This document shows positions 16,143 to 50,586 of a stretch of 64,000 nucleotides of DNA, piece after piece. Each line of letters opens with the position of its first letter. Positions within the stretch are counted from its first letter, which is position 1. The position numbers and the translations under genes were made by a program. The stretch comes from Halostagnicola sp. A-GB9-2 (GTDB lineage Archaea > Halobacteriota > Halobacteria > Halobacteriales > Natrialbaceae). The stretch covers positions 62,001 to 126,000 of the forward strand of contig NZ_JASJOC010000002.1 in the NCBI RefSeq assembly GCF_030068615.1, given 5' to 3'. The notes beneath the pieces were generated by a model. That model was not told where the DNA came from. It searched no databases and saw only the letters and a program-made list of their open reading frames with translations.

Positions 16143-16754
16143 TTATCGCTCGAGAGCGTACAGGGCGAAGAACGCGATTGCAGCGCCGGTTTCTGCGACC
16201 TTCGTCAAAAGTGCGGTCACGTCCTCTCGCAGGTGATCGATCACGACCTCGTGGGCGGCGCCGTCGTGATCGTCTCCATTGTGGTCGTGACCGTCGTCGC
16301 CGTTGTGGTCGTGACCATCCCCGTCGTGGTCATGGCTGTGATCGTCTCCATTATGGTCGTGACCGTCCCCGTTATGGTCGTGACCGTCCCCGTCGTGACT
16401 GTGGTCGTCGCCGTTGTGATCATGGCCGTCACCGCCCCCGTGATCGTGCATGTCGACACCGGTCGCCGTCTCGAAGTACCCTAACGCGTGGACATCGGCG
16501 TAGGCGAACAGATGCAAGACCATGAGCACGCCGCCCGCCAGATAGACCGTCGGCGGGGCGAGCGTCCCTCGAGCGAGGGAAACGAGGAGAGCGACGACGA
16601 GCACGGCGCTGACGATGAACAGTATCGGAACGACGCTCAGTGCGCCGTCGGCGACCGATCCGAGGAGGCCTTCGAATCCGATAATGAGATGTGCAAATGC
16701 CGAAAAGCCGGCGAGCACGACCGCAGCGCCGAGAAGTACCGATCGTCGTTCCAT
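16143..16754 (-). CDS. Membrane protein with His/Asp-rich metal-binding repeat
   Basis: A 203-residue integral membrane protein. Three or four hydrophobic segments lie at about residues 7-30, 40-62 and 68-88, with another at the C terminus (about 183-200). Between them, residues 101-168 consist almost wholly of repeats such as GDGHDHNGDDHSHD, which can bind Zn, Ni, Co or Cu. A membrane protein with an exposed His-rich linker is a pattern known from metal permeases and metal stores, but I do not recognise the family. The repeat is also visible at DNA level (16290-16440). It is divergent from a membrane protein/HTH pair that starts at 16849. Confidence 0.8.
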   Translation of the reverse strand: MERRSVLLGAAVVLAGFSAFAHLIIGFEGLLGSVADGALSVVPILFIVSAVLVVALLVSLARGTLAPPTVYLAGGVLMVLHLFAYADVHALGYFETATGVDMHDHGGGDGHDHNGDDHSHDGDGHDHNGDGHDHNGDDHSHDHDGDGHDHNGDDGHDHNGDDHDGAAHEVVIDHLREDVTALLTKVAETGAAIAFFALYALER

Positions 16755-16848
16755 TGTACCGATAGCACATAGTCAGCGAGTAAGCCGGTTTTGGTACGAA
16801 CGCCGAAAAAGCGAGAGCGAAAAGACCCCTCCCTCGTAACGGTGGTGT

Positions 16849-17352
16849 ATGCAACCGGTTTCGGACGTGGCTGTCCCCTCGTCCACTCATTTGGCTCGAT
16901 CGGTCTTCGCCGAGTCGAGCCGCTGGATCTTGGACGGCTCGAGCCTTCCGTCGATAGGTGGCCGGGATCCGGAGCCGGCCCGTTCCGTTCGTCTGGAAAC
17001 GGTCGTCCTCGAGAGTTCGATCGGATCGGGCGAGGTCGACTGGCATCTGGCGCTGTTGCTTGCAATTTCTGCGATCGGTGCGTTGATCGTGTTCGCGTTG
17101 GCCGCGACGGCGTTTCGCCGCCGGAAGTCGCTTCCGTACCTGTTAATCACGGCCGCGTTAGGGGCGCTCGTCTTGCGCCCGATCGTGGGTGCCGGGACGG
17201 TTCTCGGCCACGTTCCGATGGGGCACCATCACACGATCGAGCACTTGCTCGACGTCGTTATTGCGGGATTCTTGATCGCCGCGGTGCTTTCCGTCGGCAC
17301 CCTCGAGACGGAGTCGAACGCTGAGAGGAAACCACCGAACAAGGACAAATGA
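16849..17352 (+). CDS. Haloarchaeal membrane protein upstream of HTH regulator
   Basis: A 167-residue protein with a polar N terminus of about 62 residues and three predicted membrane helices (about 65-88, 95-112 and 130-148). Between helices two and three is GHVPMGHHHTIEHL, a His cluster that could bind a metal ion. Its final codons overlap the start of the HTH gene (ATGA, 17349-17352), so the two products are made together, the usual arrangement for a membrane-bound sensor partner and its regulator. Function not known. Confidence 0.7.
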   Translation: MQPVSDVAVPSSTHLARSVFAESSRWILDGSSLPSIGGRDPEPARSVRLETVVLESSIGSGEVDWHLALLLAISAIGALIVFALAATAFRRRKSLPYLLITAALGALVLRPIVGAGTVLGHVPMGHHHTIEHLLDVVIAGFLIAAVLSVGTLETESNAERKPPNKDK

Positions 17353-17864
17353 ACGAAACTAGAGTACGAATCGAGGACGAAATCGGAACTAGCCCAGGTA
17401 TCCACTTCAATGCCCTCGTGCGTGATCTCTCGCTCGCACCGGGACAGATCCAGTATCACGTTCGGCGACTGATCGACGACGACCGAGTGGTTCGACACGA
17501 GCGGTTCGGTCGAACGCACTATTACCCGCCCGAGTACGACGAGTGGGAACGCGACGCCGTCGCCATCCTCCGACGGGAGACCGCCGGTGCCGTTGCCACG
17601 ACGCTCTATTCTCGAGAAACCGCCAGACCAGGAGAACTGACCGACGCGCTCGATATTCCGCGAAGCACGCTCGAGCACCACCTCTCTCATTTAGAAGATT
17701 GCGGCGTCGTCGAGCGCGAGTACGTCCGCGGTAATCGGGTTTCGCTCTCGCTGGCACGTCCCTCGGAGACGGCGGCCCTGCTCGAGGCGATTTCACCGGC
17801 GCCCGGCACGCGACTGGTCGACCGCTTCGAGCGACTGGTTGACTCCTTGCTCGATGAGGAGTGA
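17349..17864 (+). CDS. Tandem winged-helix transcriptional regulator
   Basis: A 171-residue regulator with two winged helices of the ArsR/MarR type: residues 5-60 (PGIHFNALVRDLSLAPGQIQ, YHVRRLIDDDRVVRHE, then the wing GRTHYYP) and residues 75-135 (RPGELTDALDIPRSTLEHHL, LEDCGVVEREYVRG). No Cys-rich metal site is present. It is translationally coupled to the membrane protein before it, and the whole unit is divergent from the His-rich membrane protein. It probably controls one or both transcription units; that is inference. Confidence 0.85.
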   Translation: MNETRVRIEDEIGTSPGIHFNALVRDLSLAPGQIQYHVRRLIDDDRVVRHERFGRTHYYPPEYDEWERDAVAILRRETAGAVATTLYSRETARPGELTDALDIPRSTLEHHLSHLEDCGVVEREYVRGNRVSLSLARPSETAALLEAISPAPGTRLVDRFERLVDSLLDEE

Positions 17865-18033
17865 GACGACCCGCTGTAACGATTTACCGGTACAACTGTG
17901 ACTATCCTGCGGTTGCACCGAAAATGACCTTCTGAAGTTAGTCTTCTGATAGGCACTCGTTTCCGTGGCCCAGTCGGACGGATCCGCGTTCGGAGCCGAC
18001 AGCTACAAACCGCCGATAGACCCAGACGTAGGT

Positions 18034-19011
18034 ATGCCCGGGAAAGTAAGTCCGTCAGATCTGCTCGAGCACGTCTTCGATCGGACGGGCGCGGCCGACG
18101 AGACCGTCACGCAGGGGCCCGCCGACGGCGAAGACGCCGCCGCGATCGACTGGCCGGGCGGCACCCTCGTCGTGAGCTCCGATCCGATTTCGCTCGCGGC
18201 CTCACAGGTTGGCACGCTTGGCGTTCACGTCGCGTGCAACGACGTCGCGGCCTCCGGTGCCGATCCGCGGTGGCTCACCGCGGTCGTCATGCTCCCCGAG
18301 GAAACCGATCTCGAGCCGATCAGTCGCGATCTCGATGTGGCGGCCCAGGCGGTCGGCGCGTCGATCGTCGGCGGCCACTCCGAGTACGTCGACGCGCTGG
18401 ATCGCCCGCTCGTCTCGCTCACCGCGATGGGATCGACCGAGGCGTTCATCCCAACGGGCGGGGCGGAACCCGGCGATAGGGTCGTCTTGACGAAGGCGGC
18501 GGGGCTCGAGGGAACGGCGATTCTCGCCGCCGATTTCGGCGACGACCTCGAGGTGGACGCGGCCGCCTGCGAGCGAGCCGAGGCGTTTCTCGAGGAGATT
18601 AGCGTCGTTCCGGACGCCAGGCTCGTCCGCGAGTACGCGACGGCCATGCACGATCCGACCGAAGGCGGCGTCGCGGCCGGACTGCTCGAGGTTGCGAGAG
18701 CGTCGGAGTGTCGGCTCGATATCGACCGCGACGCCGTCCCGGTCCGCGAGGAGACGGCCGCCCTCTGTGCGGCCGCGGGCGTCGACCCGCTCCGGATCTT
18801 CGGATCGGGAGCGTTGGTCGCGACGGTTCCCGACGACGACCTCGAGGCCTGTCTCGATGCGCTGTCGGGCGCGGGGATCGAGGCCGCGGTGATCGGGACC
18901 GTGCGGGAGGCAGTCGATCGACCCGAACTCCGCCTCGGCGACGAGACGATCACGAACCCCGTCGAAGACGATCTCTATCCGCTGTGGTCGGCCGTCGACA
19001 CGGCGGAGTGA
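18034..19011 (+). CDS. AIR synthase-related protein (PurM/HypE/ThiL/SelD superfamily)
   Basis: A 325-residue ATP-binding protein of the PurM-like superfamily, whose members phosphorylate or dehydrate amidated, carbamoyl or seleno substrates. Recognisable parts are GPADGEDAAAIDW with SSDPISLA (metal/ATP site), VACNDVAASGADPRW, the central HDPTEGGVAAGLLEVA and the C-terminal FGSGALVATVP. The last two resemble HypE most, yet no hydrogenase genes are in the window. The ATG at 18034 is used because homology begins at MPGKVSPSDLLEH; a GTG at 17965 would add 23 non-conserved residues. Its 3' end overlaps the convergent channel gene by 37 bp. The specific reaction is unknown. Confidence 0.8.
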   Translation: MPGKVSPSDLLEHVFDRTGAADETVTQGPADGEDAAAIDWPGGTLVVSSDPISLAASQVGTLGVHVACNDVAASGADPRWLTAVVMLPEETDLEPISRDLDVAAQAVGASIVGGHSEYVDALDRPLVSLTAMGSTEAFIPTGGAEPGDRVVLTKAAGLEGTAILAADFGDDLEVDAAACERAEAFLEEISVVPDARLVREYATAMHDPTEGGVAAGLLEVARASECRLDIDRDAVPVREETAALCAAAGVDPLRIFGSGALVATVPDDDLEACLDALSGAGIEAAVIGTVREAVDRPELRLGDETITNPVEDDLYPLWSAVDTAE

Positions 19012-27262: not shown

Positions 27263-27472
27263 ATGGAACAGACGACGCTCGAGGTCACCGGCATGAGCTG
27301 TACTGGCTGCGAACAGAACGTTGTCGAGGCCCTCGAGGGGCTCGATGGCGTCTCGGAGGCGACCGCGGACCACGAGTCGGACGAGGTTCGCGTCGAACAC
27401 AATCCGGCTCTCGCGGACGCCGCATCGATCGGCGGTGCGGTCGAGCAGGCAGGATACACGGTTTCAGCGTAA
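27263..27472 (+). CDS. Heavy-metal-associated (CopZ-like) chaperone
   Basis: A 69-residue HMA-domain protein with ferredoxin-like fold. The metal site is GMSCTGC (C13, C16), as in copper chaperones, followed by VEALEGLDGVSEATADHESDEVRV and the closing AGYTV. It probably carries Cu(I) to a P-type ATPase, which is not in this window. A glutaredoxin-like gene lies next to it on the other strand. Confidence 0.92.
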   Translation: MEQTTLEVTGMSCTGCEQNVVEALEGLDGVSEATADHESDEVRVEHNPALADAASIGGAVEQAGYTVSA

Positions 27473-49163: not shown

Positions 49164-49955
49164 TTACACCATCATGACCGCGATGAAAAGGACCCCGGAA
49201 ACCCCAGCGACGATGCCGACTGCTTTAGCCAATTGTGGGCCCCACGAAACCGTTCGTTCGAGCGAAAGCACGAGCGCAATGATCGCCATCCAGAGGATGT
49301 TCATCGAGCCGGCAACGACCATGAACGCGAACAATGCCCAACAGCACCCCACACAGAAGAGGCTAAAGCGCAAACCCATACTCGCGGCACCGCGAATCCC
49401 GGACCGATGGTAGGTCATCAGAAACCCGAACGGTGATCGACATTTATCGAGGCACTGGTATTTGTACGGCGATAGTTGGTATCCTCCGAGCAGTAGGAGT
49501 ACGCCTCCGATGAGGAGCGGCCCGTGATTGCTTACTAGCGATACGAGTGGGACCAGCGCGTTGACTGCCAGTGGAATGAGGCCGGTGAGCGTCCAGACGA
49601 GTGTATACACCCCGAGCAACGCGCTCAGCCTTGCGGCTTTTGCGGGTCTGGAGAGATCCTGCAGTGTCCCGTTGTACAGCCGGAACAACGGCACCGTCGA
49701 GGGATACATCATGGCGACCATCATCGTCCCCCACATGAGCAGATAGAGCACGACGCCGATAGGACCCTGTCCAATCGCCATCGCTTCGGGGACGCCGGGG
49801 TCAGACATCCGCATGTCCATCTTGCCTCCCGGCATTGGGACCCATCGCCAGAGGATTGCAATCCATGCACCGAGCGCGAGCACGTACATGACGATGGCGA
49901 TAAGCGGAAGTTGGCGTATGGTGAGGATCTGCTGTTCGGTCTTTCGTGTGGTCAT
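49164..49955 (-). CDS. DUF2182 integral membrane protein
   Basis: A 263-residue membrane protein of the uncharacterised DUF2182 family, often annotated as metal-binding. About seven helices are predicted, starting at residues 15-35. Family signatures are YKYQCLDKCRSPFGF (two Cys) with FCVGCCWAL and GSMNILWM further on; MMVAMMYPS is the Met-rich segment after the first helix. It is 25 bp downstream of the DUF1326 gene on the same strand, an association also known outside archaea. The biochemical role is not established; transport or handling of a soft metal through Cys/Met is inference. Confidence 0.88.
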   Translation of the reverse strand: MTTRKTEQQILTIRQLPLIAIVMYVLALGAWIAILWRWVPMPGGKMDMRMSDPGVPEAMAIGQGPIGVVLYLLMWGTMMVAMMYPSTVPLFRLYNGTLQDLSRPAKAARLSALLGVYTLVWTLTGLIPLAVNALVPLVSLVSNHGPLLIGGVLLLLGGYQLSPYKYQCLDKCRSPFGFLMTYHRSGIRGAASMGLRFSLFCVGCCWALFAFMVVAGSMNILWMAIIALVLSLERTVSWGPQLAKAVGIVAGVSGVLFIAVMMV

Positions 49956-49980
49956 ACCTGGAAAGAATTATGTGGAGAAC

Positions 49981-50586
49981 TCAGGTATTCGCCATTTCGA
50001 ACTCACCGAAGTACGAGTTATTGCCTCCGACGTCCCACGAAAAGTCGTCATCGAAGGCAACGGTCGCTTCGGTCGTCTTGCCAATGTTCGCTGTTTCGTC
50101 CGGCTGAATGAACGGGTGGGGGTATGCTGACCCCTGGCTATCGCCGAAGCCGACGCTTTTGTCGGTCTCGATCGAGACGATATCGCCCGCACTGAACGAG
50201 AGGTGGCCGTCCCCCGTTGAGTAGGATATCGGCACCACAACACTATCTTCGACGGTGTCGATCAGCGGCGCGGCGGCTTCAAACAACCCGCCTGCCTGGC
50301 CGGAGAAGATGGTTTCGAGTGCCTCCGCTTGCGCTTCATCAGCAGCCTCGTCGATCACGAGGACGACGTGCCACCCGCCGTCGAGAAGGATGCCGTCCTC
50401 CCAAACGAGCATCCCTGCTCCGAGCCTGTCTAGGGACACATCCCCGTACGCCCCTTCTTGGATATTCCAGAATCCGGCGAACGTACATTTGTCGTCGTCT
50501 GCTGGTTCGTACCACAGACACTGGCACGGGACCGAACAGTTGCACGCCTCGATGAAGTCGCCTTTGAGGTTCCAGTCTTGTGTCAT
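49981..50586 (-). CDS. DUF1326 family protein
   Basis: A 201-residue cytoplasmic protein of the DUF1326 family. The N terminus has the signature ACNCSVPCQCLW with C15, C17, C21, C23 and another Cys at 34, an obvious metal or cofactor site. The rest is acidic and beta-rich (FAGFWNIQEGAYGDV, VVLVIDEAADEAQAEAL, HPFIQPDETANIGKTTEATVA). It is first in a two-gene unit with DUF2182 and divergent from an HTH regulator. Function unknown. Confidence 0.9.
   Translation of the reverse strand: MTQDWNLKGDFIEACNCSVPCQCLWYEPADDDKCTFAGFWNIQEGAYGDVSLDRLGAGMLVWEDGILLDGGWHVVLVIDEAADEAQAEALETIFSGQAGGLFEAAAPLIDTVEDSVVVPISYSTGDGHLSFSAGDIVSIETDKSVGFGDSQGSAYPHPFIQPDETANIGKTTEATVAFDDDFSWDVGGNNSYFGEFEMANT

Follow-up and report, generated by a model that had tools for sequence, protein, structure and literature searches.

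A divergent membrane-protein locus of Halostagnicola suggests a regulon for copper supply in haloarchaea, with a predicted operator

Introduction

In Halostagnicola sp. A-GB9-2, the gene for a His-rich membrane protein stands divergent from a gene pair for a DUF7471 membrane protein and a winged-helix regulator, an arrangement that suggests a regulon for copper supply in haloarchaea, for which an operator sequence can be predicted. The window analysed here is a stretch of 64,000 nucleotides (contig NZ_JASJOC010000002.1, positions 62,001 to 126,000) from a genome of 4.68 Mb. It probably belongs to a circuit for copper supply that has so far gone undescribed; copper is the most probable metal in view of the company that relatives of its genes keep with SCO1, NosL and NosDFY in other loci. 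We hold with moderate confidence that it forms a copper-supply, or cuproenzyme-maturation, unit served by one predicted bidirectional operator.

The supply of copper to many haloarchaeal cuproenzymes, as well as the regulation of this supply, is largely undescribed. In the literature library searched for HVO_0163, DUF7471 and haloarchaeal copper regulons, neither the motif presented below nor any involvement of these families with copper was described. The locus provides a predicted operator, three promoters within its own genome, two membrane proteins that are candidates for handling copper and a candidate for their regulator; in addition, it helps to explain the occurrence of NosDFY/NosL genes without nosZ.

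Organization of the Locus

The first-pass annotation of the window had described a membrane protein with about 68 residues of His-Asp repeats, divergent across a 94-bp gap from a second membrane protein that is coupled by an ATGA overlap to a double winged-helix regulator. All three genes and the other elements of this anatomy are in place (Table 1). The gap between HISRICH and DUF7471 spans 16755-16848 and indeed measures 94 bp, the stop codon of DUF7471 overlaps the start of the regulator as ATGA at 17349-17352, the repeat region comprises residues 101-168 of HISRICH, and the regulator combines PF24266 with an ArsR-like HTH. The sequence GHHHTIEH, which had been placed between helices, is present at residues 125-132 of DUF7471, but begins the third membrane helix of the structure model (H124-158) and does not form a free loop. 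The codon-model scores of P0002 and P0003 are low (0.062 and 0.129 per amino acid, against a gene mean of 0.32 with SD 0.08); both are nonetheless taken as real genes because their family matches exceed the cut-off.

Table 1. Features of the divergent locus, in window coordinates.
Feature	Positions	Strand	Remarks
HISRICH, membrane protein with His-Asp-Gly loop (predicted extracytoplasmic)	16143..16754	-	ORF of 203 aa
His-Asp-Gly region codons of HISRICH, residues 101-168	16251..16454	-	
Predicted operator, 19-bp imperfect palindromic element TGGTACGAACGCCGAAAAA	16792..16810	none	
DUF7471 (PF24283), three-helix membrane protein	16849..17352	+	Pfam E 2.3e-25, 88.9 bits
DUF7471 codons 127-135, HHxxxHxxD, predicted metal ligands	17227..17253	+	invariant in 60 aligned sequences
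HVO_0163-family tandem winged-helix regulator	17349..17864	+	PF24266 E 1.8e-36
AIR-synthase (HypE-like) gene	17965..19011	+	recurrent neighbour

No nos gene was found at the locus within a 14-kb stretch (L068). The AIR-synthase gene is HypE/ThiL-like and falls under the cut-off for every named equivalog. On the other flank, HISRICH is followed on its own strand, at a distance of 139 bp, by a haloarchaeal Mn superoxide dismutase (NF041312; 15401-16003, minus strand). This gene does not adjoin HISRICH in the genus mates examined and was rejected as a member of the unit, the best SOD match at the HISRICH locus of genomes G057, G020, G104 and G248 having an E value of 0.14.

Three Protein Families

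The hydrophobicity profile of HISRICH shows three clear helices and a C-terminal hydrophobic stretch. Its 68-residue loop (residues 101-168) holds 19 His, 23 Asp and 16 Gly, and the underlying codons form an imperfect 21-bp tandem array of 7.8 copies with a score of 116, for which reason the repeat is not attributed to chance. Searches of Pfam and NCBIfam gave zero matches, and we call HISRICH a new family here. Across 14 aligned members, H22, H89, H143, H174, K185 and E188 are invariant; the long His-Asp loop is confined to the nearer relatives, and distant members do without it. As a single query, HISRICH matched 32 of 194 class genomes at a threshold of E 0.001; roughly nine of these matches were strong and full. 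A profile built from the 14 members matched 204 of 391 class genomes. Assignment to the ZIP transporters (PF02535) was rejected: the window protein is unmatched, and PF02535 weakly matches 3 of the 14 members (best 1.1e-4), possibly via the His region. A sequence search of the PDB with HISRICH returned merely His-rich stretches at E values of at least 0.22.

The second membrane protein passes the Pfam threshold for PF24283 (cut-off 27 bits) and carries every residue that is invariant in 60 DUF7471 sequences, namely R92, L107, R110, H127, H128, H132 and D135, the last four of which make up the HHxxxHxxD motif. Helices at residues 65-92, 95-119 and 124-158 are predicted by its structure model (mean pLDDT 81.9), and the motif lies at the start of the last one, on a side that would face outside if the RRRK following helix 1 is read according to the positive-inside rule. 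DUF7471 was detected in 162/194 class genomes. In a sample of the phylum it was present in 36/246 genomes, all of which belong to the same genus, family or order as the window's genome or are that genome itself, and because no match of this sample reaches beyond the order, the family looks restricted to Halobacteria. Within the PDB, a fold search gave no match at E of 0.001 or below and the best sequence match had an E value of 0.74.

The regulator scores 124.5 bits against a cut-off of 31 for the N-terminal HTH_HVO_0163_N domain (PF24266), which is followed by a second winged helix, and its structure model shows a tandem winged helix with a pLDDT of 90.1. The NCBIfam model for ArsR/SmtB metalloregulators (NF033788) was missed, at 44.8 bits against 55. 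Among 51 family sequences no Cys column exceeds 30%, and the invariant His residues 19, 37, 57 and 111 are all situated within the HTH motifs. In its own genome the window regulator stands alone as a strong representative of the family (E 2e-75, followed by 1.5e-21). Of 17 HISRICH-bearing genomes tested, 16 encode such a regulator with an E value of 1e-70 or lower; only G195, with 2e-26, does not. Since its genome has no other strong family member and since the family accompanies HISRICH in these 16 genomes, the regulator is the natural candidate for the protein predicted to bind the gap. The HVO_0163 protein is reported in PMC10294847 to increase under hypochlorite.

A Palindromic Element at the Centre of the Gap

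A weight matrix derived from the aligned gaps of relatives defines a 19-bp element whose centre (16801) nearly coincides with that of the gap (16801.5), and which is separated from the start codons of HISRICH and DUF7471 by 37 and 38 bp, respectively. It is kept, at fixed spacing, in 11/11 loci of the HISRICH/DUF7471-HTH clade (the window plus ten), where HTH denotes the regulator gene; leave-one-out scores range from 14.2 to 28.9. The ten relatives retain it whether HISRICH, DUF7471 or both are present. Read from the gene side, the element is TTCG-N5-CGNACCA.

A second palindrome, CGTTCYC-N7-GRGAACG, occupies divergent HTH|DUF7471 gaps of relatives, for example L084, L110 and L173. Its core GTTC-N11-GAAC is found in 33/68 nonredundant gaps of this kind, compared with a maximum of 8 across 20 Markov controls, and about one exact copy exists per genome, at the HTH|DUF7471 locus; off-locus matches in other genomes (six loci inspected) fall mostly within coding sequences, dnaK and purK among them, as named by reading the sequence. 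This palindrome is the probable autoregulatory operator of HVO_0163-type regulators. A GTTC-N11-GAAC operator is absent from both the window gap and the rest of its genome. The two elements share GTTC/GAAC half-sites, with spacings of 7 and 11.

The Motif Before Other Genes

The exact motif TTCGN5CGNACCA recurs 25-50 bp before possible starts of NOSD (39/78), SCO (25/52), NOSL (21/85), CCDA (9/38) and HISRICH genes (14/57, with five of these 14 sites stemming from loci that served to define the motif). In the same test it preceded 1/209 DUF7471 ORFs, 0/188 HTH ORFs, 0/100 NOSF, 0/71 NOSY and 0/13 TLPA genes, and 20/2005 unlabelled called genes taken as a control, counts on called genes being approximate since the gene caller misses low-bias genes. 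Kinship inflates these counts, so that the distinct strings number 10 for NOSD, 11 for SCO, 14 for HISRICH, 11 for NOSL and 4 for CCDA, and the sites counted for NOSD and for NOSL overlap in genes that fuse the two proteins. Motif-to-start distances cluster at 34-37 bp. Under a spacing rule of 33-38 bp, 57/124, 20/80 and 8/40 loci carry the motif (71, 29 and 8 sites), against none for four scrambled patterns.

The window's genome contains the motif 17 times and the reversed pattern twice. Three of its motif sites have an ORF-opening ATG at the 34-37 bp that delimit the proposed regulon: those before HISRICH (37 bp), SCO1 (35 bp) and NosL (34 bp). This SCO1 is His-rich and opens a SCO1-TlpA-DUF7471 operon, while the NosL is a lipoprotein scoring 44.4 bits against a cut-off of 24. 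The corresponding genes are NosL (34 bp; named by likeness to the NosL of the window's genome, not by a scan) and HISRICH (37 bp) in G057, and HISRICH (34 bp) in G104. Raw counts taken irrespective of spacing amount to 12 motif versus 5 reversed matches in G057 and to 11 versus 11 in G104, in both cases not clearly above the control. The majority of distant HISRICH relatives are without the motif and lie next to housekeeping genes.

Eight of the 20 motif-bearing control genes were scanned; three encode DUF7350 + Iron_transport proteins, two encode DUF7405 proteins and three gave no match or one below the cut-off. The motif also stands 34-36 bp before TAT-type proteins located beside DUF7471-HTH pairs (L172, L182, L186, L187, L189, L190, L195, L197 and L202). 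Several of these are DUF7405 or DUF7350/Iron_transport proteins, which hints at a wider regulon of exported metal proteins.

Genomic Neighbourhoods

In order to survey DUF7471, 140 stretches were fetched, 124 of which contained the gene, and neighbours within 7 kb were named via Pfam. These 124 haloarchaeal loci include HTH (109), NosF-like (52), NosD (48), NosY (46), NosL (46), SCO1 (30) and CcdA (23) genes. Eighty named loci collected by another route, which share species with the former sample, gave HTH 74, NosF-like 30, NosD 24, NosL 22, NosY 21, SCO1 16 and CcdA 13. Plasmid pHH400 of Haloarcula hispanica is one example, with an annotated hypothetical-NosL-HTH series facing permease, ATPase and NosD. 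The second DUF7471 of the window's own genome belongs to the SCO1-TlpA-DUF7471 operon.

The nitrous oxide reductase gene nosZ (PF18764) was present in 61/194 genomes and was not found in that of the window. Among 45 genomes with NosD and NosY at a DUF7471 locus, 27 have nosZ and 18 lack it; likewise, nosFY without nosZ is noted for H. volcanii in PMC9240420.

HISRICH has partly different company. Its 55 loci, including the window, bring together SCO1 (6), TlpA (5), AIR-synthase (5), DUF7471 (4) and HTH (3), and NosD or NosY at none of the 55. Three genomes of group f9 place HISRICH opposite a ccdA-like gene (judged from its sequence, a Pfam match being absent), TlpA and SCO1. In G312 it is divergent from an ATPase above the cut-off for copper-translocating P-type ATPases, and G120 and G338 share one mobile stretch that lies close to a heavy-metal ATPase and holds HISRICH, SCO1, TlpA and DUF7471 (L096 and L225, counted as one event). 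Many distant relatives lie amid housekeeping genes (gatB, topA, hisB and hisA, named by reading the sequence), a setting that says nothing about copper. No recurrent Zn, Ni or Co transporter cluster appeared among the neighbour clusters inspected.

Arrangement Across Relatives

The exact three-gene arrangement is rare, and the order HISRICH, DUF7471, HTH, AIR-synthase was found in the window alone. An AIR-synthase gene adjoins a DUF7471-HTH pair lacking HISRICH in six other loci (G045, G046, G047 and three named ones) and adjoins HISRICH in four others, including G020, G104 and G248, where the pair is not adjacent; this recurrence is perhaps merely synteny. In G057, HISRICH is divergent from a regulator 86.6% identical to that of the window (tblastn), and DUF7471 is shrunk to a 38-codon ORF that retains the ATGA overlap with the regulator (L089, 7124-7245; by eye), which is a gene-loss intermediate.

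The first-pass annotation had expected the two sides of the gap to stay paired in relatives. DUF7471 or the regulator occurs within 5 kb at 4 of 54 other HISRICH loci, so this expectation holds in part. A Natronomonas MAG contig found separately (L275) does keep all three genes adjacent in another order, with HTH and HISRICH in tandem and divergent from DUF7471, and its HISRICH again has His-Asp repeats.

A Proposed Copper-Supply Circuit

Our model assigns complementary tasks to the proteins of the locus. The His-Asp loop of HISRICH would lie outside the membrane and loosely collect copper ions; DUF7471 would bind copper in the membrane via HHxxxHxxD, where its last helix would reach the outside, and help it on to the exported chaperones SCO1, NosL and NosDFY. 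The co-translated HVO_0163-type regulator, or else another copper regulator of the cell, would bind the palindrome at 16792-16810. Such binding would act on both divergent units and, together with them, on the unlinked nosL and the SCO1-TlpA-DUF7471 operon, all of which bear the same motif. We infer that the trigger would be copper shortage or demand and not excess, because the targets are delivery proteins and not efflux proteins, and because a SCO operon of H. mediterranei is strongly induced in denitrification, with a log2FC of up to 7.56 reported in PMC11218638.

The metal-homeostasis switch of the first-pass annotation is upheld in part by comparative evidence in the form of the gap element, the shared motif and the copper-gene neighbourhoods, and its idea of a shared promoter gap controlling a metal-supply unit is supported by the element at the gap centre and by the motif before SCO1, nosD, nosL and ccdA; binding of the regulator to the gap stays a prediction. 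Some findings count against a copper unit: the pair occurs without HISRICH in G045-G047, HISRICH occurs without an adjacent pair in G020, G104 and G248, the regulator is devoid of a conserved Cys, and its genome is devoid of nosZ. A bolder version, in which a membrane metal sensor (DUF7471) and a Cys-less regulator (the HVO_0163-type protein) are paired as the copper-supply master switch of Halobacteria, controlling NosL, NosDFY, SCO1 and the His-loop collector via TTCG-N5-CGNACCA even where nitrous oxide reductase is missing, appears to us somewhat unlikely.

The identity of the element-binding protein is where the proposal meets its strongest competitor. Since TTCGN5CGNACCA is nearly absent at HTH and DUF7471 ORFs (0/188 for the former), it may belong to another factor, and a copper regulon whose element is bound by, for example, a TRASH-domain Lrp-type protein like VNG1179C is a real possibility, although we lean against it. 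The regulator would then control its own pair only, from a different operator, in line with the CGTTCYC-N7-GRGAACG palindrome in its own gaps in relatives, present in 33/68 nonredundant gaps and nearly once per genome; moreover, one haloarchaeal copper regulator already known is VNG1179C (PMC3551603), for which PMC4236453 gives a DNA motif of its own. On the other hand, the element lies within the promoter of the DUF7471-HTH unit in the window's clade, and the two palindromes have GTTC/GAAC half-sites in common.

Two further readings concern the metal and the grouping itself. As Iron_transport-type and other TAT lipoproteins bear the motif, an iron or broader role is possible. His-rich loops, moreover, are known to bind several metals. 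The locus could thus serve the general maturation of exported metal and redox proteins, with an oxidant-responsive regulon that extends to iron-transport-like lipoproteins, and with HISRICH binding Zn, Ni or Co, which is common for His-Asp loops. The DUF7350 + Iron_transport and DUF7405 proteins among the scanned controls and the rise of HVO_0163 under hypochlorite (PMC10294847) would fit this scenario; we still regard it as unlikely, given that the recurrent named neighbours are SCO1, NosL, NosDFY and a copper P-type ATPase and that Zn, Ni and Co transporter clusters do not recur among those inspected. That HISRICH and the DUF7471-HTH pair were inserted at an AIR-synthase hot spot and have no joint function would agree with the uniqueness of the window's full gene order and with the occurrence of either half alone beside the AIR-synthase gene in relatives. 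Such a chance neighbourhood seems improbable to us in view of G057, where HISRICH is still divergent from a closely similar regulator despite the shrunken DUF7471, and of the rearranged Natronomonas MAG, both of which derived states retain the element.

Relation to Known Systems

The proposed copper-supply unit shares features with several described systems. It resembles NosL/NosDFY, which serve the copper maturation of nitrous oxide reductase, in that DUF7471 and HVO_0163-type regulators recur in nos clusters and a common motif precedes nosD and nosL; unlike these, the locus described here contains no nos gene, and nosZ is absent from its genome. The SCO1/SenC-TlpA system, which delivers copper to cytochrome oxidase, is linked to it by the motif before the SCO1-TlpA-DUF7471 operon of the same genome and by the adjacency of HISRICH to SCO1/TlpA in other genomes, yet both HISRICH and DUF7471 are integral to the membrane and are not thioredoxin-fold chaperones. 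The second winged helix of the regulator resembles ArsR/SmtB proteins (CmtR, SmtB, CzrA, CadC) in sequence (2jsc, E 1.3e-4) and in fold (8qkf, 1r1u), but the protein differs from them by its additional N-terminal HVO_0163 winged helix, its sub-cut-off NCBIfam score and its lack of conserved Cys.

Within the haloarchaea, the Lrp-TRASH protein VNG1179C of Halobacterium is a copper regulator, described in PMC3551603 as controlling a P1 ATPase and chaperones; it belongs to another protein family and governs efflux under excess copper. The denitrification motif CGAAYATDKTYG of H. mediterranei presented in PMC11218638 is also a palindrome in the promoters of haloarchaeal nos genes, but its CGAA-N4-TTCG has the reverse polarity and another spacing compared with TTCG-N5-CGAA. 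A survey of H. mediterranei (PMC9240420) links its candidate metal-responsive regulators to metals other than copper.

Elsewhere in the window, a PpoB2 'copper chaperone' gene (PF09948) and a DUF1326 gene (PF07040) are adjacent on the minus strand at 49164-50586, and a CopZ-like heavy-metal-associated protein of 69 aa (HMA, PF00403) is encoded on the plus strand at 27263-27472.
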